From Wenzhouxiangella sp. (lineage in GTDB: Bacteria > Pseudomonadota > Gammaproteobacteria > Xanthomonadales > Wenzhouxiangellaceae): a stretch of 41,409 nucleotides of DNA. Positions 23,129 through 40,668 of the stretch are shown here, piece after piece. The stretch spans positions 1-41,409 of the forward strand of contig RECK01000148.1 of the NCBI GenBank assembly GCA_007694055.1, written 5' to 3'. Each line of letters opens with the position of its first letter. The first letter of the stretch is position 1. The position numbers were made by a program, and so were the translations under genes. Under the pieces are notes generated by a model. That model made no database searches, was not told the DNA's origin, and saw only the letters and a list, made by a program, of their open reading frames with translations.

Positions 23129-24508
23129 GTGTCGAACCGCTTCCGTGTACCCCACACGCTGGTCCTCATGTTCGGCATGATGGTCGTGGCCCTGGTCCTG
23201 ACCTGGATCCTGCCGGCCGGCGAGTTCCAGACCGAGCCCAACGAGGCCGGGCGAGAGATGGTGGTGCCGGGCACCTACGAGGTGCTGGAAGAAGCGCCTC
23301 GCCTGAGTCCCGTCTCCCTGCTGACGGTGGTACCGCGCGCACTGGAAGACGCCCAGGGCATCATCTTCTTCGTCTTGCTGGTCGGCGGCGCGATTGCCGT
23401 GCTGCGCCGCACCGGGGCCATTGATGCCCTGCTCAATGCGCTCATTCAGCGTTTTGGTCACACGCCCTGGCTGCTCATCGCTGGTGGCATGCTGGCCTTC
23501 GGCTTCGCCTCGGCCACGCTGGGCATGGCCGAAGAATACATCCCGTTTGCCGCCATACTCATTGCCCTGTGCGTGGCGATGCGAATGGATGCCGTCACTG
23601 CCATCGGCATCATGGTGGTCGGCTACGGCATTGGCTATGGTGTGGCCGTGATCAACCCATTCACCCTGCATGTTGCCCAGGGCGTGGCCGGACTGGAGCT
23701 GAGTTCTGGCTGGGAGTTCCGCCTGGCGCTGTTTCTGCCATTTATTGCCATTGGCTTTCATCACGTCTGGTCCTACGCACGCAAGGTGCAGGCCGACCCG
23801 GCCAGCAGCCTGGTCGCCGACATCCCTGCCGCCCAGCCACCGGAGGCCACCGAGCAACCGGCCATGGATACACGGCGCACGCTGGTGCTGCTGGCAACCC
23901 TGGGCGCTCTGATCCTGTTGATTGTCGGCATTAGCCGCTTCGGCTGGTACCTGGTCGAACTGGGCGCGATCTTTCTCGGGCTGGCCATCCTGGTCGGGCT
24001 GATCGGCGGCCTGAAGCTCGACCAGATCGCCAATCATTTCACCCGCGGCGCGGCCGAACTGGCCGGCACCGCCATATTGATCGGCTTTGCCCGTTCGATT
24101 GCCATGCTGCTCGAAGACGGCATGGTGCTGCACACCATTGTTTACGCGCTGGCCACCCCGCTGGCCATGGTCCCGGCGCAGATCTCGGCCGTGGGCATGC
24201 TGTTCATCCAGAGCGCGCTGAACTTTTTCATCCCCTCAGGCAGCGGCCAGGCCTTTGTCACCATGCCGCTCATGGCCCCGATTGGGGATCTGGTCGGGGT
24301 CAGCCGCCAGACCGCCGTCCTGGCCTTTCAGTTCGGCGATGGATTCATGAACATGATCGTGCCAACCAACCCGGTGCTGATGGGCATCATCGGCCTTGCC
24401 GGCATTCCCTATGACCGCTGGTTCCGATTCATCTTTCCGCTGATCATCAAACTGCTGATCGCCGGCTCGCTGGCCCTGATGCTGGCCGTGTGGATGGGTT
24501 ACAGCTGA
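23129..24508 (+). CDS. YfcC-family transporter
   Basis: A 459-residue integral membrane protein with about twelve hydrophobic segments, of the YfcC / DcuC-like ion transporter superfamily. Recognisable parts are the opening RVPHTLVLMFGMMVV..LTWILPAGEF, the first re-entrant motif near GFASATLGMAEEYIPFAAIL, the INPFTLHVAQ segment, and the second motif NFFIPSGSGQAFVTMPLMAPIGDLVG and PTNPVLMG. The substrate is uncertain; relatives are annotated as carboxylate or basic amino acid carriers. The start is GTG 23129 with ribosome site AGGGAGA eight bases before it. The preceding gene is a secreted peptidase, which makes amino acid or dipeptide use plausible. Confidence 0.88.
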   Translation: MSNRFRVPHTLVLMFGMMVVALVLTWILPAGEFQTEPNEAGREMVVPGTYEVLEEAPRLSPVSLLTVVPRALEDAQGIIFFVLLVGGAIAVLRRTGAIDALLNALIQRFGHTPWLLIAGGMLAFGFASATLGMAEEYIPFAAILIALCVAMRMDAVTAIGIMVVGYGIGYGVAVINPFTLHVAQGVAGLELSSGWEFRLALFLPFIAIGFHHVWSYARKVQADPASSLVADIPAAQPPEATEQPAMDTRRTLVLLATLGALILLIVGISRFGWYLVELGAIFLGLAILVGLIGGLKLDQIANHFTRGAAELAGTAILIGFARSIAMLLEDGMVLHTIVYALATPLAMVPAQISAVGMLFIQSALNFFIPSGSGQAFVTMPLMAPIGDLVGVSRQTAVLAFQFGDGFMNMIVPTNPVLMGIIGLAGIPYDRWFRFIFPLIIKLLIAGSLALMLAVWMGYS

Positions 24509-30989: not shown

Positions 30990-32399
30990 ATGGAACTTGA
31001 CCCACTGCTGCTTTCGCGATTTCAATTCGCGTTCGTGGTGTCCTTTCACGCCATATTTCCGGTTTTCACCATCGGCCTGGCGTCATACATCGCTCTGCTG
31101 GAAGGCCTCCATTACAAGACCGAAAACCCTGTCTATCTGAAACTGTCGAAGTTCTGGATCAAGGTCTTTGCCATCGTCTTTGGCATGGGCGTGGTGTCCG
31201 GCATCGTCATGGCCTTCCAGTTCGGCACCAACTGGAGCGTATTTTCTTTCTCGTCGGCCAATTTCCTCGGCCCGATTCTGAGCTACGAAGTCGTCACCGC
31301 CTTCTTCCTTGAGGCGACTTTCCTGGGCGTGCTGTTGTTCGGGCGCGACAAGGTGCCAAAGGGCGTGCATCTTTTCTCTGCCTGCATGGTGGCCCTTGGC
31401 ACGTTCATCTCCTCGTTCTGGATCCTGTCGGCCAACAGCTGGATGCACACACCGGCCGGCGTGGAATTTCACGACGGCATTGTCCACATGACCTCGTGGA
31501 CACAGGCGATTTTCAATCCGTCCATGCCCTATCGCTTCAGCCACATGGCGCTGGCCTCATTCATCACCGGCGGATTCGTCGTCGCCGGCGTCAGCGCCTG
31601 GTACCTGCTCAAGGGGCGCAATCCCAAGACCAGCCGCAAGGCCCTGGCCATGTGCGTAGTCATGCTGGCAATCGCCACGCCGCTGCAGCTTGTGGTTGGC
31701 GACATGCACGGCCTGAACACGTTCGAGCATCAACCGATGAAGGTCGCAGCCATGGAAGGTGCGTGGGAAACCAGAACTCGTGCGCCCCTGTTGTTGTTTG
31801 CCATTCCGGATGCCGCCAACGAAACCAACCACTTCGAGATCGCGATACCGGGCCTGGCCAGTTTGATCCTCACCCACAGCCTGGACGGTGAAGTACCCGG
31901 TCTGCTCGAGGTCGCCCCGGAAGATCGGCCACCGGTCGGCATCGTGTTCTGGAGCTTCCGGATCATGGTTGGCCTGGGCATGCTGTTCATCGCCGTGTCC
32001 CTGGCATCGGCCTGGCAACTCTGGCGTGGCCGTCTGTACGACTCTCCCCGCCTGCTGCGCGTGTTGACCTGGATGATCCCCTTGCCCTTCGTGGCCGTGC
32101 TGGCCGGCTGGTTCGTGACCGAAGTCGGACGTCAGCCCTGGATCATTCACGGGGTCATGCGCATATCCGATGGGGTGACTCCGTCGATCACCGGCTGGAT
32201 GGCGCTGGCCACGCTGATCGGCTACATCAGTGTCTACGCCATTGTCTTCAGCGCCGGTGTGATCTACCTGCGACGGGTCATCCAGGCTGGCCCTGACCCC
32301 ATCGAGGAAGCACCCGACGACGAGACCGCGCGGCCCAAGCGGCCCTGGTCCGCCGTCCCATTCAAGGTTGACGACGCCGCCCAGAGCGCAGGGAGTTAA
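30990..32399 (+). CDS. cydA: Cytochrome bd-type ubiquinol oxidase subunit I, short Q-loop (CioA type)
   Basis: Oxidises ubiquinol and reduces oxygen to water without proton pumping. At 469 residues it is shorter than E. coli CydA (522), with the quinol-binding Q-loop reduced; this is the CIO-like class. Heme ligand His20 lies in SFHAIFPVF, and further signature parts are [11 protein letters not shown] (His), [11 protein letters not shown] and [12 protein letters not shown]. About nine membrane helices are visible. The ribosome site AAGGG precedes ATG. It heads a cydA-cydB-cydD-cydC cluster. Confidence 0.95.
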
Positions 32400-32402
32400 G
32401 CC

Positions 32403-33410
32403 ATGGAACTGATTGACCTGACCCTGATCTGGGTTGTCATCATCGGCATCGGGATCTTCATGTATGTCCTCATGGATGGCTTCGATCTGGGCGTGGGGAT
32501 TCTTTTCCCCTTCGCCCCCAGCGATCATGCACGCGATGAGCTGATGAACTCGGTAGCACCGGTCTGGGACGGCAACGAGACCTGGCTGATCCTCGGCGGC
32601 GCGGGTCTGCTGGCGGCCTTCCCGCTGATTTACGCAGTCTTCCTGCCGGCCCTGTATATCGGCGTGTTCCTGCTTCTGGCCGGGCTGATCTTTCGGGGTG
32701 TGGCTTTCGAGTTTCGATTCAAGGCCCAGGCTCGCAAGTACTGGTGGGATCGCGCCTTTTTCGGCGGCTCGACCGTCGCATCCTTCGCCCAGGGAGCGGT
32801 GGTCGGCGCTTACATCCAGGGCTTTGAAACCGAAGGCTTCAGCTACGTTGGCGGCGCATTCGACTGGCTGACGCCATTTACCGTCATGACCGGCCTCGGC
32901 GTGGTCGCCGGCTACGCCCTGCTGGGTGTGACCTGGACCATTCTGAAAACCGAGGGCAAGACCCAGGAGTGGGCGTTTCGTCTGGCGCCGTGGCTGCTGG
33001 CGGCCGTGATGGGCTTTTTCATCATTGTCAGCCTGTGGACGCCCCTGGCGCATGAACGCGTCATGGAACGCTGGTTCGACAACATCAGCTGGCTGTGGCT
33101 GTTCCCGGCCCTGACCCTGGCGACCGCGACCTGGGTGCTGTGGCGGATCCGCCAACGCGCCGAAGCCTCTCCATTCCTCGGCTCAATGGCGCTGTTTGCC
33201 CTGTTTTACCTCGGCCTGCTCATCACCCAGTGGCCGTATGCCGTGCCGCCCGAGCACACATTCTGGGACGCAGCTTCCGATCCCGGCAGCCAGCTGTTCC
33301 TGCTCATCGGCGTGCTGTTCCTGATCCCCATCATCCTCGGCTACACGGCCTGGACCTACTGGGTATTCCGCGGCAAGGTCAAGACCGGCGAGGGCTACGC
33401 TGGCCACTGA
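32403..33410 (+). CDS. cydB: Cytochrome bd-type ubiquinol oxidase subunit II
   Basis: The 335-residue partner of subunit I, with about eight or nine membrane helices and no heme ligands of its own expected. Family marks are GIFMYVLMDGFDLGVGILFPF, VWDGNETWLILGGAGLLAAFP and GVAFEFRFKA. It begins three bases after the cydA stop, so both subunits are translated together. Its end may overlap the cydD start. Confidence 0.96.
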   Translation: MELIDLTLIWVVIIGIGIFMYVLMDGFDLGVGILFPFAPSDHARDELMNSVAPVWDGNETWLILGGAGLLAAFPLIYAVFLPALYIGVFLLLAGLIFRGVAFEFRFKAQARKYWWDRAFFGGSTVASFAQGAVVGAYIQGFETEGFSYVGGAFDWLTPFTVMTGLGVVAGYALLGVTWTILKTEGKTQEWAFRLAPWLLAAVMGFFIIVSLWTPLAHERVMERWFDNISWLWLFPALTLATATWVLWRIRQRAEASPFLGSMALFALFYLGLLITQWPYAVPPEHTFWDAASDPGSQLFLLIGVLFLIPIILGYTAWTYWVFRGKVKTGEGYAGH

Positions 33411-35100
33411 CGAAGGGAGCTCCAGCCAGCGTCGCTGGCTGGACGGCCTGGCACCTGTCTGGATTGGCCGCGCCAGCGCTGCTGTTGCCCTGCTCGAGGC
33501 CACGGGCTTGCTGGCCCAGGCTGGCCTGCTGGCCTGGATATTTCATGCCGCCGTCGTCGAGCACAGGCCGCTGGACAGCCTCGTTTATCCCCTGCTCGGC
33601 CTGCTCGCCGCGATCCTGGTCAGGTGCGCCGCATCCGCGCTGCGCGGCATGATTGCCGCGCGCGCTTCGCGCATGATTCGCAACAAGCTCCGCCAGCAAC
33701 TCTACCTTGCCCTGGCCGCAGCGGGTCCACGACACGGCCAGGACAGCGGTCACCTGCTCTCGCGCCTGGTCGAACAAATCGAGGCCCTGGATCCATACTT
33801 TGCCCGGTATCGGCCACAGGCCGTGGCTGCGACCATCATTCCGGCATTGATCCTGGTCGCCGTCCTGGGCGTGAACTGGCTGGCCGGGCTGCTGCTGGCC
33901 CTGGCCGCGCCGCTGATTCCGGTCTTCATGATTCTGGTCGGATGGAGCGCGGAGCAAGCAGCCCAGCGGCAGCAGCGGGCGCTGGGCCGGCTGTCCGGCC
34001 TTTTCCACGATCGCCTGCGCGCCCTGGCCCAGATCCGCCGACTTGGCGCCGACAGGTTGGAGCTGGCCAGGCTGCGCGATTACAGCGAAGAGTTCCGCGA
34101 GCGCACCATGCGGGTGCTGCGCCTGGCATTTTTGTCATCGGCAGTGCTGGAATTCTTTGCCGCGATCGCCATTGCCTCGCTGGCCATCTACATCGGCCTG
34201 GGACTGCTCGGCTTCATTGCCTTCGGGCCAGCCGCTCAGCTCACGCTCGCCAGTGGATTGTTCATCCTGCTGCTGGCACCGGAGTTCTTCAACCCTCTGC
34301 GTCAGCTCGCGCAACACTGGCATGACCGCGCCGACGCACTGGCCGCCGCAGCGGACATCCGTCCGCTGCTCGAACTGCCGGCGGCCCGCCCTGCCCCGGC
34401 CCACCCCCCGGCACGAATCCCCGACTACGCCTGCCGGGTCGAAGCCAGCGCGCTGGATCAAGCCTGGCCTGGGCGCCGGCCCGTCCTTGAGAATCTGAGC
34501 CTGAGCGTGGCCGCCGGCGAGCATGTCCTGATCACCGGGCCCAGCGGCTGCGGCAAGTCCACCCTGATCAGCGCACTGGCCGGCTTTATCGCACCCGGCG
34601 CGGGCCACATCAGCTACGACGGCATCGACCTGTCCACGTTCGATCAGGGTAGCCTGGCCAGAAGCCGGGGCTGGTTGGGTCAACGTCCCGTGCTGTTCGC
34701 CGGCACCCTGGCCAGCAACATCGCGCTGGGCAAACCCGGCGCGCAGCCGGACCAGGTACGCAAGGCAGCCGAACTGGCCGGGGTCACGGAATTCGCCCGC
34801 CACCTGCCCGATGGCCTGGGCAGCCCGATCGGCGAGCAAGGCCTGGGCCTGTCTGGCGGCCAGGCCCAGCGCGTAGCCCTGGCCCGCGCCCTGCTCGAAG
34901 CCCGACCGATCCTGTTTCTTGACGAACCGACTGCCAGCCTCGACGAGCTCAGCGAAACGTTGATCTGGCGGGCCATTGGCCGGATCTCGGAAGAGCGTGC
35001 CATGACGGTGATCTGCGCCAGCCACAGCCCGCTGGCCAGAAGCTGGGCCAACCGGACCTTGCTGATGCAGGACGGCCGCCTGCTGGAAGCCGGCCCATGA
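33400..35100 (+). CDS. cydD: Thiol reductant ABC exporter subunit CydD
   Basis: Half-transporter that with CydC exports glutathione and cysteine to the periplasm, needed for cytochrome bd assembly. An N-terminal six-helix membrane domain is followed by the ATPase with Walker A GPSGCGKS, signature LSGGQ and Walker B LFLDEPTAS. The start is unclear. The first conventional codon, TTG 33508, would cut into the first membrane helix. The frame is open upstream and codes for a matching N-terminus (RRWLDGLAPVWIGRASAAVALL). CTG 33400, preceded by GAGGG five bases upstream and overlapping cydB, is used here, giving 566 residues (E. coli 588). TTG 33508 is the conservative choice, 530 residues. Confidence 0.88.
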   Translation: MATDEGSSSQRRWLDGLAPVWIGRASAAVALLEATGLLAQAGLLAWIFHAAVVEHRPLDSLVYPLLGLLAAILVRCAASALRGMIAARASRMIRNKLRQQLYLALAAAGPRHGQDSGHLLSRLVEQIEALDPYFARYRPQAVAATIIPALILVAVLGVNWLAGLLLALAAPLIPVFMILVGWSAEQAAQRQQRALGRLSGLFHDRLRALAQIRRLGADRLELARLRDYSEEFRERTMRVLRLAFLSSAVLEFFAAIAIASLAIYIGLGLLGFIAFGPAAQLTLASGLFILLLAPEFFNPLRQLAQHWHDRADALAAAADIRPLLELPAARPAPAHPPARIPDYACRVEASALDQAWPGRRPVLENLSLSVAAGEHVLITGPSGCGKSTLISALAGFIAPGAGHISYDGIDLSTFDQGSLARSRGWLGQRPVLFAGTLASNIALGKPGAQPDQVRKAAELAGVTEFARHLPDGLGSPIGEQGLGLSGGQAQRVALARALLEARPILFLDEPTASLDELSETLIWRAIGRISEERAMTVICASHSPLARSWANRTLLMQDGRLLEAGP

Positions 35101-36755
35101 GTCCACTGCGAACCCTGCTCGAACTGGCCCGGCAACACCGGGGATGGCTGCTGCTGGGCCTGGCCCTGATGTTGCTGTCGCTGGCCGCCGGCACGGTGCT
35201 GATTGCCTTGTCAGGCTGGTTCATCACCGCCAGCGCGCTGGCCGGCCTGGGCCTGCTGATCGGCCTGGATATCTTCACCCCCGGTGCCGGCATCCGGCTG
35301 GCCGCGATTACCCGTACCCTTTCGCGCTACGGTGAGCGGCTGGCCACCCACGCCGCCACGCTGCGCCTGCTGACTGATCTGCGCCTGCGCCTGCTCGACC
35401 GCATGCTCAAGCTCGATGATGCACAACTGGCAGCGCTGCGCCGCGGCGATACGCTGAACCGACTCACCGGTGATGTCAATGCGTTGGACGGGCTGTTTTC
35501 CGGAATCCTGGGCCCCAGCCTGGCGGCCGCAATGCTGACCTTGCTCGCAGCCATCGGATTTGCCCTGATCCAGCCGGCCTTGAGCGCGCTGGTCGTCCTG
35601 CCGCTGCTGATCCTGCTTCCCCTGCTTTGCCTGGCGTTATTCCGGGCCGGACGACGCCCAGGTGCTGCCGCTGTGGCTGCCTTGCCCCAACTCCGTACCG
35701 CTGCAGCCGATGGCATCGAGGGCCTGAACGAGCTGCGCGCACTGGATCGAACTGACGCCCAGGCACACGCAATCAAGCGTGCATCCGAACGCCTGGGAAA
35801 CTTGCAGCAGCGCCTTGGGGAACTGGACGCATTCGGGCAGTCAGGTGCCCTGCTGGTCGCCTCTCTCAGCTTGTGGCTGGGTCTGGTTGGCGGACTTTAC
35901 CTGCACGAGCGCGATCAGCTGAGTGCGCCCCTGGTTGCCCTGATCGTCCTGGCCGTGCTGGGCCTGTCAGAGGCCTGGCAAGGCATACCCGCCGCCTGGC
36001 GCAGGCTCGGCCACAGCCTGGCCGCGGCACGGCGCGTCGACGAACTGGCGACACAGCCGGGACGGCTGCAGGTGCCCGGCCTGCCCGCGCCATGGCCCAC
36101 TCGAACTGACCTGGTGCTGGAAGATGTGCACTTTGGCTATGGCAAGCATCTGCCCGCCGTTTTGTCCGGCCTGAACCTGACCATCGGACATGGCGAGCAA
36201 TGGCTGCTTTCCGGTGCCAGTGGCATTGGCAAGACCACCCTGGCCCTGCTCCTGATGCGCCAGTTCGACCCCGACCAGGGACGCATTCTCCTCGGCGCCC
36301 AGGACTTGCGTGATTATCATCCCGATGAACTGCGTCGTCGCATCGCCTGGTTGCCGCAAAAGCCGATCATGCTGCGCGACACGCTGGCGGCCAACCTGCG
36401 TCTGGCCAGGGCGTCGGCCAGCGCGGACGAACTGGTCTCTGTGCTGACCGCGGTCGATCTTGATGGTCTGCTGCACGAACTGCCGGATGGCCTGGAAACG
36501 TGGCTGGACGAGGACGGCGCCAACCTCTCCGGCGGCCAGCGTCAGCGCGTGGCCCTGGCACGACTGCTGCTGACCAACCCCGACATCGTGCTGCTCGACG
36601 AACCCACCGCCAGCCTGGATACCGCTACAGCGGCCATCGTCATGAACAGCCTGGATCGCTGGCTGGAAGGCCGCACCACGGTGATCATCAGCCACGACCC
36701 CCTGCCCGGCAGCACCAGACGCAGGACGCTGAAGCTGGACCCCGCGGTCAATTGA
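35097..36755 (+). CDS. cydC: Thiol reductant ABC exporter subunit CydC
   Basis: The 552-residue partner of CydD (E. coli 573). A six-helix membrane domain opens with ALSGWFITASALAGL, typical of CydC. The ATPase domain has Walker A GASGIGKTT, signature LSGGQRQRVALARLLL and Walker B VLLDEPTASLD. The ATG overlaps the cydD stop (ATGA), so the heterodimer is translationally coupled. Linkage of cydDC to cydAB in one cluster supports its assignment to thiol export for oxidase assembly rather than another ABC function. Confidence 0.95.
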   Translation: MSPLRTLLELARQHRGWLLLGLALMLLSLAAGTVLIALSGWFITASALAGLGLLIGLDIFTPGAGIRLAAITRTLSRYGERLATHAATLRLLTDLRLRLLDRMLKLDDAQLAALRRGDTLNRLTGDVNALDGLFSGILGPSLAAAMLTLLAAIGFALIQPALSALVVLPLLILLPLLCLALFRAGRRPGAAAVAALPQLRTAAADGIEGLNELRALDRTDAQAHAIKRASERLGNLQQRLGELDAFGQSGALLVASLSLWLGLVGGLYLHERDQLSAPLVALIVLAVLGLSEAWQGIPAAWRRLGHSLAAARRVDELATQPGRLQVPGLPAPWPTRTDLVLEDVHFGYGKHLPAVLSGLNLTIGHGEQWLLSGASGIGKTTLALLLMRQFDPDQGRILLGAQDLRDYHPDELRRRIAWLPQKPIMLRDTLAANLRLARASASADELVSVLTAVDLDGLLHELPDGLETWLDEDGANLSGGQRQRVALARLLLTNPDIVLLDEPTASLDTATAAIVMNSLDRWLEGRTTVIISHDPLPGSTRRRTLKLDPAVN

Positions 36756-36780: not shown

Positions 36781-36820
36781 AATACGAACGTATTGCGTTT
36801 GTGTTTGTTTGTGGTATGAT
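36781..36820 (+). promoter_or_regulatory. Promoter with adjoining palindromic operator for the RHH-pspA-yqiJ-yqiK operon
   Basis: A -35-like TTGCGT (36793-36798), a 16-base spacer and an extended -10 TGG-TATGAT (36812-36820) form a good promoter. The perfect inverted repeat AATACG-AA-CGTATT (36781-36794) abuts and overlaps the first two bases of the -35, as a repressor operator would. The protein encoded next has a ribbon-helix-helix-like N-terminus, so autoregulation is the simple reading. This promoter also rules out the in-frame starts at 36801-36819. Confidence 0.7.
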
Positions 36821-36848
36821 GCATATCAAGCTGCATGAGACCAGGACA

Positions 36849-37340
36849 GTGCCTAAACAAACCGTCACACTTCGCCTCGACGAGGATGACCTGACCTTTC
36901 TGAGCCAGGTCGAAATCACCGGGGCAGCGAATCTGAGTGAGAAAATTCGCACCCTGATCAGCGAGGCCCGGGCCCAGCGCGAAGGCATGCACGATCCGGC
37001 CGCCGCCCACGATTTTGCCCGGCGCTTGTTTGCCCGGGTCGATCGCCAGGTGCACGCCGCTGAAATGGAGCACGGTCTGCGCTCGGAGCTGGTCCACCGG
37101 GTCATGGCCTGGCTGCCGGACATCACGGCTTTTGCCCTGTCAGCCTGTCGCAACAGCGGCGGCGATCAGGACACGCGGGCCAGTCTGCAAAGCCTTGAGT
37201 CCGGGCTGGCAGAACGCAGCCTGAGCCTGAGCGAGTCGATCGAGCAACTTGGCAAGAGCGGGTTTCGTGGCTGCTATCGGCCCGAAGCACTGGCCAAACG
37301 GGCCAATTTTGGGGTACAAAGCGATGCAGGGGACGAATGA
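36849..37340 (+). CDS. Ribbon-helix-helix-like putative regulator
   Basis: From GTG 36849 the protein has 163 residues. Its N-terminus (PKQTVTLRLDEDDLTFL followed by NLSEKIRTLISEA) looks like a ribbon-helix-helix DNA-binding domain: a short strand, then two helices. The remaining 115 residues are helical with no recognised domain and may sense a signal or oligomerise. The frame is open to 36801, but that part contains the predicted -10 element. It is followed 60 bases later by a PspA-family gene. Proposed role: local autorepressor of the membrane-stress operon; this is inference from fold, operator and position. Confidence 0.7.
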   Translation: MPKQTVTLRLDEDDLTFLSQVEITGAANLSEKIRTLISEARAQREGMHDPAAAHDFARRLFARVDRQVHAAEMEHGLRSELVHRVMAWLPDITAFALSACRNSGGDQDTRASLQSLESGLAERSLSLSESIEQLGKSGFRGCYRPEALAKRANFGVQSDAGDE

Positions 37341-37400
37341 GCCCGTATCGCCAACTCGATGAATGAAACAGATACCGGCATTCAACTGGAGGAGTAGAAC

Positions 37401-38075
37401 ATGAGTGAGTCTTTGAAACAGCGCGTTGGTCGACTGGTCGCAGGCGGCTTCAACGCCCTGGTCGATGCCGTGGAAAATGCGGCACCCGAGACCGTGATGG
37501 AACAGGCCATTCGAGAAATCGACACCGCCACTGCCGAGGTCCGCAAGGAGCTGGGCGTGGTTGAAGCCCAGCGTCACCTGACCGCCAAGCGCCTGGCCGA
37601 TGACAACAAGCGCCACGATGACCTGACCGAGCAGGCCCGCCTGGCCATGAAAGAGGGTCGTGATGATCTTGCCGAAACGGCCGTTTCGCGCCAGATCGAC
37701 CTCGAAGCCCAGATTCCCGTACTGGAGACACGCCTGGCCGACCTGGCCGACGAGAAAGCGCGCCTGGAAGGCTATATCAATGCACTCAAGGCCAAGAAGC
37801 GGGAAATGCGCGACGCGCTGGACAGCTTCCGCCAGTCCCAGCGCCAGGCAAGCCAGGTATCCGGGCAGGGCGATTCGGGCGGATCAGCCGGCGCTGACAA
37901 CCGCGCTGAACGCGCATCAGCCGCCTTCGATCGCGTTTTCAGCCGCCAGACCGGACTGGCCGGTGCCAGCGGCGCCAGCACCGGCGAAGAAGCCAAACTC
38001 GCCGAACTGGAAGAGCTGTCGCGCAAGAACCGTATCCAGGAGCGGCTGGCCCGACTCAAGTCTGACGACTCGTGA
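37401..38075 (+). CDS. PspA/IM30 family protein
   Basis: A 224-residue coiled-coil protein of the PspA/IM30 (ESCRT-III-like) family, which coats and stabilises the inner membrane. Helices run from about 1 to 150 with typical text such as PETVMEQAIREIDTATAEVRKELG and LETRLADLADEKARLEGYINALKAKKREM. A Gly/Ser-rich linker (about 155-195) separates a last short helix rich in Glu and Arg. The ribosome site GGAGGAG is strong. The stop overlaps the next gene (GTGA). No pspF, pspB or pspC lies nearby; the partners are YqiJ- and YqiK-type genes instead, which marks a different PspA subclass. Confidence 0.9.
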   Translation: MSESLKQRVGRLVAGGFNALVDAVENAAPETVMEQAIREIDTATAEVRKELGVVEAQRHLTAKRLADDNKRHDDLTEQARLAMKEGRDDLAETAVSRQIDLEAQIPVLETRLADLADEKARLEGYINALKAKKREMRDALDSFRQSQRQASQVSGQGDSGGSAGADNRAERASAAFDRVFSRQTGLAGASGASTGEEAKLAELEELSRKNRIQERLARLKSDDS

Positions 38076-38800
38076 TCGAGTACTTCCTCGCCCCCGGCAG
38101 CGTGCCCTTCACGGTCGCGCTGCTGGTCATGGCCGGACTGTTCGTATTCGAACTGGTCGCCCTGTTCAAGGGCTTCGGCATCAACGAGGCGGTTGACGAC
38201 TTCATCGTCTCCAGCGTCGATATGCCCGACGAGGTCTTCGACTTTGGGGATCTGAGCACGGGTGAAACGGCCAGCGGGCTGGAGGGCAGCGGCTCGCCGG
38301 ATGGCGGCAGCATGATTGGCCGCCTGCTGGCCTGGCTTTACATTGGCCGGGTTCCGGTATTGATGGTGCTGGTGGTTTTCCTGATGGTCTTCGGCCTGAC
38401 CGGCCTGATCGGACAGTCGATACTGCGCCAGACCGTGGGCATGGCCGTGCCCGGCGTCATTGCCGCACCGGCGGTATTTTTTCTGACCCTGCCCCTGGTT
38501 CGCTGGTGCACCGGTGGCCTGGCCAGAATCCTGCCCAAGGAAGAGACCAGCGCTGTCAGCACCGCAACCTTCATCGGCAAGACCGCGGTTATTGTCGGCG
38601 GTAACGCGCGCCATGGCCTGCCCGCCCAGGCCCGCCTGTCGGACCGCTTTCGGACAACCCATTACGTCATGGTGGAACCGGAAGAGGATGACCAGGTGCT
38701 GGAACAAGGTAGCCTGGTCCTCTTGGTGAGAAGAATCAACGGCCGCTTCACTGCCATACCGAACCCGAACGCCGCGCTGGTGGCAGAAAGCGACCACTGA
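38072..38800 (+). CDS. yqiJ: YqiJ-type membrane protein with OB-fold domain
   Basis: A 242-residue protein with an N-terminal membrane helix (about 12-33, VALLVMAGLFVFELVALFKGFG), a polar segment, two further membrane helices (about 85-145) and a C-terminal OB-fold domain (about 165-235) of NfeD-like type. The layout and the following flotillin gene match E. coli yqiJ-yqiK. NfeD/YqiJ proteins are partners of flotillins. The start GTG 38072 overlaps the pspA stop by four bases, showing tight coupling. Confidence 0.85.
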   Translation: MIEYFLAPGSVPFTVALLVMAGLFVFELVALFKGFGINEAVDDFIVSSVDMPDEVFDFGDLSTGETASGLEGSGSPDGGSMIGRLLAWLYIGRVPVLMVLVVFLMVFGLTGLIGQSILRQTVGMAVPGVIAAPAVFFLTLPLVRWCTGGLARILPKEETSAVSTATFIGKTAVIVGGNARHGLPAQARLSDRFRTTHYVMVEPEEDDQVLEQGSLVLLVRRINGRFTAIPNPNAALVAESDH

Positions 38801-38824
38801 ATCCGAGCTGTCTTCAGGGGGAAC

Positions 38825-38899
38825 ATGAAAAACAGTGCAAGCAAACCATTGTCTTCAACTCAACTGAATCAGGGAGCGAACAAACAATCATGGACATGA
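38825..38899 (+). CDS. Possible 24-residue leader peptide before the flotillin gene
   Basis: ATG 38825 opens a 24-codon frame (MKNSASKPLSSTQLNQGANK, then QSWT) with a strong CAGGGGG ribosome site just upstream. It ends at TGA 38897-38899, overlapping the flotillin start at 38890 in another frame. It could couple or tune flotillin translation. It could also be chance; no homologue is recognised. Confidence 0.35.
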   Translation: MKNSASKPLSSTQLNQGANKQSWT

Positions 38900-40668
38900 A
38901 CCTCACGGCGCTTGCCGTACCCGTGGCCGTCATTCTCGGTGGCCTATTCCTGCTGGGCCTGATCTTTGCCCGGCTCTACAACCGCGCCAGCAAGGAAGTG
39001 GCTTTCGTGCGCACCGGCATGGGCGGCGAAAAGGTCGTCCGCGATGGCGGCGCGCTGGTGCTTCCGGTACTGCACGACACCATTCCGGTCAACATGAACA
39101 CCCTCAAGCTGGAAGTGGTCCGGCAACGTGAGGGGGCGCTGATTACCCGGGACCGGATGCGGGTCGACGTCCAGGCCGAGTTCTACGTCCGAGTCAAACC
39201 GGATGCCGAGGCGATCTCCACCGCCGCCCAGACCCTGGGCCGGCGGACCATGGAGCCGACCCTGCTCAAGGAACTGGTCGAGGGCAAGTTCGTCGATGCC
39301 CTGCGCGCCGTGGCCGCCGGCATGAGCATGGAAGAGCTGCACGAGAATCGGGTCGATTTCGCCCAGAAGGTGCAGGTCGCCGTGGCCGAGGACCTGCACA
39401 AGAACGGTCTCGAGCTGGAATCGGTCTCGCTGACCGGCCTGGATCAGACCCCGTCGGATTTCTTCAATCCGCAAAATGCCTTTGACGCCCAGGGTCTGAC
39501 CAAGCTGACCCAGGAAATCGAGCGCCGGCGCAAGGAACGCAACGACATCGAGCGCGACACCAAGATCCAGATCGAGCTGAAGGACCTGGAGACCAAGCAG
39601 AAGTCGCTGGAGATCAACCGCGACAACGAATACGCCCAGCTCTCACGCGACCAGGAAGTCAAGGTCCGCGCGGCCGAAACCCGCTCGAACATTGCCCGCC
39701 AGGAAGCCGAGCGACGCCGCGAGGCTGAAGAGGCAACGATCGAGGCTGACCGCTCCATCCGCGAAGCCGAGATCGAGCAGCAGCGCCAGATCGAACAGCG
39801 CCAGATCGAGCGCGAACGGATGGTCCGGATCGCCGAGCAGGAGCGTGAGATCGCGATCTCCGAGAAATCCCGGGAAGAATCGGCCGCCAGGGCCGAGGCC
39901 GATCAGGCACGCGCCAAGGCCGTCGAGGCCGAAGAACAGGTCAAGACGGTGCGCGAAACCGCCTCGGCCGAACGTGCCCGCCAGGTGCGTCTGGTCCAGG
40001 CCCGCGAGGAAGCGGAGAAAGATGCCATCTCGATCACCGTGGCCGCCGAGGCTGAGAAGCAGGCGTCGGACAACCGGGCTGAAGCCATGCGCGTTGCCGC
40101 CACCGGTGAAGCCGATGCGGTACGCATTCGCGCCCAGGCCGATGAAGAACGCTACCGGGTTGAGGCAGAAGGCCAGCGCGCAATCAACGAGGCACGAAAT
40201 GCGCTGAGCCCCGAACAGATTGCGCTGGAAATCAGGCTGGAAATGCTCAGAAACCTGCCGTCCATCATCGAACAATCGGTCAAGCCGATGGAGCGCATCG
40301 ACGGCATCAAGATCATCGATGTGCGCGGCATGAACCAGGGCGGATCCGGCGGCGATGGAAACGGCAACGCTGGCGGTGGCGACGGCAACCTGGCCCGTTC
40401 CGTGGTCGACCAGGCCCTGCGCTACCGGGCCCAGCGCCCGCTGGTTGACTCATTGCTCAACGAAGTCGGACTCGGCGACCTGGCTGATCTCAGCGGCATG
40501 GTCGGCGAAGCCACCAACGGCCGCACCTCGACCCAGGCCGCTGCGAAAAACGGCGATGAAAAGAAAAAGTCCGATGGCGGAAAACCCGCGAGGTCAAACG
40601 AAGCCAGTTCAGGCAAGGCGTCCAGTCGCCGTAGACGCGAAGACCCTGACCAGGGCGGCTCGGAATAG
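38890..40668 (+). CDS. yqiK: YqiK-type flotillin
   Basis: A 592-residue flotillin (E. coli YqiK 553). An N-terminal membrane helix (about 6-28) precedes the SPFH/band 7 domain (about 35-200: RTGMGGEKVVRDGGALVLPVLHD, MRVDVQAEFYVRV). A long, highly charged coiled coil rich in Glu, Arg and Ala runs from about 205 to 440 and drives oligomerisation. A Gly-rich linker (about 482-497) and a basic tail (about 555-592) end the protein. Flotillins organise membrane microdomains. ATG 38890 is used; ATG 38896 is two codons later. It is the last gene of the operon, 89 bases after yqiJ. Confidence 0.92.
   Translation: MDMNLTALAVPVAVILGGLFLLGLIFARLYNRASKEVAFVRTGMGGEKVVRDGGALVLPVLHDTIPVNMNTLKLEVVRQREGALITRDRMRVDVQAEFYVRVKPDAEAISTAAQTLGRRTMEPTLLKELVEGKFVDALRAVAAGMSMEELHENRVDFAQKVQVAVAEDLHKNGLELESVSLTGLDQTPSDFFNPQNAFDAQGLTKLTQEIERRRKERNDIERDTKIQIELKDLETKQKSLEINRDNEYAQLSRDQEVKVRAAETRSNIARQEAERRREAEEATIEADRSIREAEIEQQRQIEQRQIERERMVRIAEQEREIAISEKSREESAARAEADQARAKAVEAEEQVKTVRETASAERARQVRLVQAREEAEKDAISITVAAEAEKQASDNRAEAMRVAATGEADAVRIRAQADEERYRVEAEGQRAINEARNALSPEQIALEIRLEMLRNLPSIIEQSVKPMERIDGIKIIDVRGMNQGGSGGDGNGNAGGGDGNLARSVVDQALRYRAQRPLVDSLLNEVGLGDLADLSGMVGEATNGRTSTQAAAKNGDEKKKSDGGKPARSNEASSGKASSRRRREDPDQGGSE

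Follow-up and report, generated by a model that had tools for sequence, protein, structure and literature searches.

A ribbon-helix-helix-like gene with an operator-like palindrome array precedes pspA, yqiJ, and flotillin genes in Wenzhouxiangella and other proteobacteria: a candidate autoregulated operon

We analyzed a 41,409-nt stretch of DNA from Wenzhouxiangella sp. (assembly GCA_007694055.1, contig RECK01000148.1, forward strand; hereafter, "the window"), in which a gene for a ribbon-helix-helix (RHH)-like protein is followed by genes for a PspA/IM30 family protein, a YqiJ-type membrane protein, and a YqiK-type flotillin. An earlier note on this DNA had described these as four tightly linked genes seemingly under the control of the first one. 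The genes are:

36849..37340, + strand: putative RHH-like regulator gene; 163 amino acids, GTG start; RHH-like residues 1 to ~48 and a helical C-terminal domain that matched no family
37401..38075, + strand: member of the PspA/IM30 family, divergent from the canonical PspA; Pfam PspA_IM30
38072..38800, + strand: YqiJ-type OB-fold membrane protein; YqiJ_N and YqiJ_OB above cut-off
38890..40668, + strand: YqiK-type flotillin; Flot and Band_7 domains above cut-off

All four reading frames are open at these coordinates in the window sequence, and those of pspA and yqiJ share 4 nt (38072-38075), so the gene order and the four-base overlap given in the note are confirmed. The GTG start of the first gene, at 36849, is where conservation among its homologues begins. 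Pfam searches assigned the second protein to PspA_IM30 (E 2.7e-20; 73.4 bits, with a cut-off of 33.9), the third to YqiJ_N (E 4.2e-29) and YqiJ_OB (E 4.7e-26), and the fourth to Flot (E 2.1e-44) and Band_7 (E 2.5e-19). The last two genes thus have the composition of a YqiJ-YqiK (NfeD2-SPFH2) pair, i.e., a YqiJ_OB protein followed by a Band_7/Flot protein. The PspA protein is not canonical, since it scored 42.7 bits with the equivalog model TIGR02977, whose cut-off is 242.95. The CesT/Tir family was unmatched in the four proteins.

Homologues of the first gene were collected at 31 loci, corresponding to 29 genomes and two named records (L006 and L007). At every one of these loci the RHH gene precedes pspA or yqiJ, and its linkage across species is therefore constant. 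The RHH gene is immediately followed on the same strand by pspA in 27 cases and by yqiJ in the remaining four (L018, L019, L020, and L062), where an RHH-yqiJ-yqiK arrangement is found and pspA is absent. PspA, which the note had counted as an operon member, is accordingly a frequent but not a constant one, and the idea that it is a necessary partner of the RHH gene was dropped. yqiJ is present in 30 of the 31 loci (partially in L047); in L076 the contig stops after pspA. In 61 genomes (the window's own and those of relatives) there were 16 matches to the first protein at E 0.01, 15 of them clear (E 8e-14 or better). Weak matches in L022 and L023 (E 0.003 and 0.006) were dropped; neither pspA nor yqiJ is present in their 3-kb loci. 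YqiJ_OB was found in 21 of the 61 genomes, with all 15 RHH-positive genomes included vs. six of the 46 others (Fisher test, 7.7e-10). The converse fails: 12 YqiJ_OB loci lack the RHH gene, and three of these carry pspA (G364, G261, G078).

A wider scan revealed RHH homologues in three of 369 genomes of the class (two new), 23 of 299 of the order (eight new), and five of 398 of the phylum (four new). The RHH gene is thus distributed over a scattered set of proteobacteria, and its linkage also holds in genomes from other classes within the phylum. In L078/L094, where the homologue was found by profile only, the distance from the RHH gene to the pspA match is ~330 nt, longer than in other loci. 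No match to the RHH gene was present in a plasmid collection. Four loci from the genus of the window (L041-L044; genomes G019, G022, G008, and G029) carry a very diverged YqiJ-flotillin pair (YqiJ_OB, 35-39 bits), and neither the RHH gene nor a site of the operator-like kind described below was found in them.

Profile comparisons back the assignment of the first protein as RHH-like that had been made in the note: at its N-terminus it is, as judged from these alignments, similar to the RHH (MetJ/Arc/CopG) superfamily. Among PDB sequences, a profile built from 17 homologues had a single match near significance, NikR with an E-value of 0.0045, the alignment running over the DNA-binding N-terminus; the other 12 PDB sequences listed were unrelated (E 0.6 or worse). 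When the N-terminal 54 columns were compared with 14 RHH_1 members using hhalign, the score was 71.7%, while 100 column-shuffled controls reached at most 14.9% and the C-terminal half of the protein 7.0%. The RHH_1 members were gathered from relatives' genomes (22 matches). An earlier comparison with all 22 rows gave 70.5%, in register across residues 6-40; short flanks had left seven of these rows empty and one as a fragment, and the 71.7% value rests on the 14 good rows. Across 24 aligned homologues, residues R9, S30, K32, and R34 do not vary, and all four lie within the RHH_1-aligned stretch.

The C-terminal part, ca. 110 residues, is predicted to be helical and matched no family or fold (Pfam, NCBIfam, profile, and Foldseek searches); in the same 24 homologues, E72, S79, E117, and R123 are invariant within it. 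The closest named homologues of the whole protein, 79-85% identical, come from metagenome assemblies of Wenzhouxiangella or Wenzhouxiangellaceae. Two side observations concern members of the family. The subfamily at L065-L068 is without the Cys near residue 142 that other homologues conserve. The assembly of L069 (G550:C14) shows an RHH gene that breaks off at ~53 residues (L070 is the second fragment of this broken copy), yqiJ is split over two frames, and the pspA downstream looks intact; the breaks may reflect natural decay or assembly errors.

The region upstream of the first gene contains the following elements, the promoter elements having been read from the sequence and with a script pattern:

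36782..36793, no strand assigned: operator-like copy 1, ATACGAACGTAT; palindrome ATACRNNYGTAT, the inner part of the dyad at 36781-36794
36793..36804, no strand assigned: operator-like copy 2, TTGCGTTTGTGT; 11 bp downstream of copy 1, overlaps the -35
36793..36798, + strand: -35-like element, TTGCGT
36812..36820, + strand: extended -10-like element, TGG-TATGAT, 16-nt spacer

The dyad AATACGAACGTATT at 36781-36794 is perfect (6+6), as the note had it, and shuffles of the whole window matched it 0.03 times on average when two mismatches were tolerated. Conservation of the dyad ahead of RHH homologues was also seen. Allowing up to two mismatches, the exact 14-mer was present upstream of nine of 26 homologous genes, close relatives among them (mean of 0.02 and maximum of 1 in shuffles), and with up to three mismatches in 13 of 26 other upstream regions (shuffles, 0.26). 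The dyad turned out to be one copy of a palindrome, ATACRNNYGTAT, which is often repeated 10-11 bp (one helical turn) away; with up to one mismatch, this motif, drawn after reading the upstream regions, was found in 20 of 27 of them (shuffles, mean 0.38, maximum 3).

In a palindromic weight matrix, the TAC..GTA positions carried the most weight, and the center was A or T. For comparison with RHH-less loci, three near-identical loci of the 31 (L004, L062, L068) were left out, and the controls were all 12 RHH-less YqiJ_OB matches (six among the 61 genomes and six in the later scan), scored over 150 nt upstream of the first gene; start codons of the homologues and of the RHH-less genes were chosen by hand. 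Scores of at least 8.5 bits, a threshold set after seeing the scores, were reached at 26 of 28 RHH loci vs. none of the 12 RHH-less yqiJ operons. The rank test, which is independent of this threshold, also showed higher best scores in the presence of the RHH gene (Mann-Whitney, 8.8e-7). Four loci found after the matrix had been built scored 13.7, 12.9, 11.4, and 8.2 bits. Outside the 150-nt zone, RHH-less L085 has an 11.7-bit site just within yqiJ, and the RHH-less pspA-yqiJ-flotillin locus L081/L087 (G261:C4) has a lone 10.8-bit operator-like site, TTGCGTTTGTAA (position 570 of L081), ca. 190 nt upstream of pspA. The latter is possibly a remnant of a lost regulator; a 352-residue open reading frame upstream looks SPFH-like by eye.

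In the window, copy 1 is the best site (16.6 bits), and copy 2 (10.0 bits) is the fourth best, being outscored also by two sites in other parts of the window, at 23579 and 23121. In 19 of 28 loci, 10 or 11 bp separate the two highest-scoring sites, and the offsets +10, +11, -10, and -11 are enriched relative to shuffled flanks (z 4.9, 6.2, 5.9, and 4.7). Given this spacing, there is a tendency for the sites to be arrayed along the same side of the helix, which is the arrangement that RHH dimers would be expected to need. Such series of short palindromes are reminiscent of the Arc and MetJ operators, and as a sequence pattern the array near the gene's own promoter has the short, often tandem form of RHH operators. 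With NikR/CopG/Arc/MetJ-type repressors the first protein shares the N-terminal profile match (NikR, RHH_1); its C-terminal domain is unrelated to any family found, and its operator-like sequence is its own. The L065-L068 upstream regions contain variant sites, e.g., GTATACGATTGCATACGAAGGTAT in L067, with copies 10 bp apart.

The 4.15-Mb genome contains three exact ATACRNNYGTAT sites, one of which is copy 1. The A/T-centered form ATACRWWYGTAT, chosen after seeing the weight matrix, occurs exactly once, as the operon's own copy; five further places are one base off, and the total of six equals that of the backwards control. An operator-like site that is nearly unique points to a regulator dedicated to this operon, not to one with a large regulon.

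The promoter was described correctly in the note: direct reading and the pattern match both place an extended -10 promoter here, and the dyad touches its -35-like element, TTGCGT. The same -35/extended -10 pattern starts exactly 11 bp downstream of the operator start in seven of 27 loci; in L005, the -35-like element is at operator start +22, i.e., 11 bp after the second copy. A generic σ70 scan listed nothing at this promoter.

The note had contrasted the cluster with the classical Psp system by its lack of pspF, pspB, and pspC. This stands for the four operon proteins, to which the check for PspB and PspC was confined: none of them matched PspB, PspC, or PspF families (Pfam, NCBIfam). At the scale of the genome it does not, because a PspF that exceeds the curated cut-off of 443.55 bits (G000:C130; 489.2 bits) and a second, more typical PspA (PspA_IM30, E 1.9e-38 vs. 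4.8e-20 for the operon copy) are present on contigs other than that of the operon, and different from each other, in this draft. The corresponding pspF and pspA genes of G605 and G997 adjoin in opposite directions, which is the classical arrangement. Since this genome contains a PspF and a second PspA, the operon exists here alongside the classical Psp system. PspF above the cut-off was found in 13 of the 29 RHH-positive genomes. Eleven of the 29 have a single PspA_IM30 match, which is the RHH-operon copy in nine (G049, G058, G059, G622, G624, G630, G648, G663, and G719) and lies elsewhere in G050 and G060. No PspF above the cut-off was found in those nine genomes, tentatively, as several of them are drafts; in other species, then, the module is apparently the only PspA locus.

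The gene set, the constant linkage, the RHH-like N-terminus, the array tied to the RHH gene, and the overlap of this array with a -35-like element in close relatives led us to the following proposal. The first gene would encode a dedicated one-component regulator, whose N-terminal RHH dimers bind the palindromes, which have the core TACRNNYGTA and recur at intervals of roughly one helical turn. Bound dimers would cooperatively occupy a single side of the helix across the -35 and repress a co-transcribed regulator-pspA-yqiJ-yqiK operon, so that the regulator would repress itself. The helical C-terminal domain may oligomerise the regulator, receive an inducing signal, or both. The signal would most plausibly be a condition of the cell envelope that either the products of the operon itself or some other ligand reports, and the system may in this way sense membrane state. 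Upon release of the regulator, PspA and the YqiJ-flotillin pair would be raised together. We consider it probable that the first protein is such a cooperative RHH autorepressor of its own operon, with a signal entering via the C-terminal domain.

Several results weigh against this proposal. As for the RHH assignment, no Pfam or NCBIfam family was above its cut-off for the 163-residue protein, although the Pfam RHH cut-off is a profile threshold and not a structural definition. The best Pfam match was DUF6290 (E 0.06, 14 of the 27 bits required), to which six of 17 homologues also had weak matches, and the NikR match fell to E 0.034 when a more diverse set of 24 rows was used. An AlphaFold model from a seven-row alignment has helices at 12-20 and 27-48, with the predicted local distance difference test score (pLDDT) below 50 for residues 1-9 and 21-29, and Foldseek found no match to it at E 0.001. 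A single-sequence model of residues 1-59 was of low confidence and, unlike the alignment-based one, had a strand in place of the first helix. The fold models are weak evidence either way, because the alignment is shallow and the RHH fold needs a dimer. As for the operator, only the 14-mer test and the four later loci are independent of the way the consensus was drawn; the site at L018 is unconvincing (5.6 bits) and that at L078 weak (8.2 bits). Other offsets were enriched as well (+16, z 4.8; +21, z 4.4; -16, z 3.3; +22, z 3.0), which self-overlap of the palindrome or recurring half-sites and multiples of a turn, taken together, would partly explain. The -35/extended -10 pattern was unmatched in 19 of 27 loci. 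Finally, the computed data do not discriminate repression from activation.

The alternative that fares best is that the regulator belongs to the YqiJ-flotillin pair, with PspA a passenger in most loci and the signal relating to membrane domains rather than to the classical Psp stimulus. The four RHH-yqiJ-yqiK loci without pspA are in line with this, as is the fact that an RHH gene with pspA and no yqiJ is seen only at a contig end (L076). Against it, pspA stands between the regulator and yqiJ in 27 of 31 loci, and the pspA-less state could be a secondary loss in one or two lineages; we regard this reading as possible but somewhat doubtful. A bolder version of our own proposal, in which the helical domain reads the assembly state of the membrane or of flotillin/PspA, couples PspA repair to flotillin domain organization, and replaces PspF in the nine genomes of 29 mentioned above, we offer only tentatively, and it is rather unlikely to hold.

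Also unlikely is a purely homeostatic autorepressor with no inducer, whose C-terminal domain would do nothing except oligomerise the protein on tandem operators. Sites one turn apart would suit cooperative binding of this kind, and the domain has no family or fold match. In B. subtilis, by contrast, relatives of the PspA-SPFH set are described as stress-linked in the available part of PMC8581546. Moreover, ~110 residues with invariant E72, S79, E117, and R123 are much for oligomerisation alone. Activation of the operon by the RHH protein from the array would fit the poor -35-like hexamers (TTGCGT, etc.), which could need help, and the sign of regulation in our proposal is itself deduced; but eight of 27 loci have a site copy over the -35-like element, where repressors typically bind, and we consider activation improbable. 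Small RHH proteins are often antitoxins, and the distribution is patchy (three of 369 genomes of the class), but linkage at 31 of 31 loci that reaches other classes of the phylum, with no match in the plasmid collection, makes an antitoxin-like or mobile-element gene lying beside pspA by chance extremely improbable.

Directly upstream of the cluster, on the same strand (window 30990-36755) and ending 25 nt before the dyad, are cytochrome bd-like genes, provisionally named cydA, cydB, cydD, and cydC. The first gene of the cluster starts 93 nt past the end (36755) of the cydC-like gene (35097-36755). This gene was rejected as a constant part of the module: it was found in only two (L002 and L005) of the 30 other loci, most of which reach ~1.5 kb upstream.

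Linkage of PspA, YqiJ-type proteins, and flotillins is already published, as are helix-turn-helix (HTH) regulators in pspA operons of Acidobacteriota. Comparative genomics revealed PspA-YqiJ/YuaF-flotillin (band-7) operons with a CesT/Tir-PspA dyad (Ravi et al. 2024, PMC11237479); in the available part of that source, an RHH factor is the last gene of a spermine-synthase-type PspA operon, and another is found in an actinobacterial Toastrack operon. These operons have PspA, a YqiJ-type protein, and a band-7/flotillin protein in common with ours, which, unlike them as described there, has the RHH gene first, a conserved operator-like array, and no CesT/Tir match. In Acidobacteriota, PspA is associated with band 7/FloT and NfeD proteins, and HTH regulators were proposed to control PspA operons (Popp et al. 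2022, PMC9239133); there the phylum is different, the regulators are HTH and not RHH proteins, and the accessible text describes no operator. In the pspA-ydjGHI operon of B. subtilis, PspA likewise occurs with membrane partners and an SPFH protein, which is required for its membrane localization, but control is by sigma-W, YdjI is without a membrane segment, and no RHH gene is described in the portion of the article available (PMC8581546). The YqiJ and YqiK families share one operon in E. coli, as here; the article's available text (PMC2636767) contains no occurrence of PspA, describes no dedicated regulator, and cites unpublished data according to which neither osmotic nor alkaline shock induced YqiK. 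Literature searches, with the supplements of PMC11237479 lying outside them, returned no RHH-first arrangement with this operator (in PMC8656257 the term occurs in a reference alone).

With the classical Psp system (PspF, PspA, PspBC), the operon shares an effector of the PspA family and differs in the type of regulator. It is a conserved regulatory module built from known families, and the comparison of genomes has given it firmer support than the note could draw on. To our knowledge, the regulation of flotillin and diverged PspA systems in Gram-negatives is largely open, and a dedicated regulator points to control of the PspA-YqiJ-flotillin set as one unit. A protein family without a Pfam match thereby gains a testable function, and the defined, nearly unique operator of such a regulator would serve directly as a reporter in the search for the signal. 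The results also suggest that an RHH switch may operate alongside the classical phage-shock switch or in its place; if it does stand in for PspF, this would be a further way of controlling PspA, by a one-component RHH repressor.

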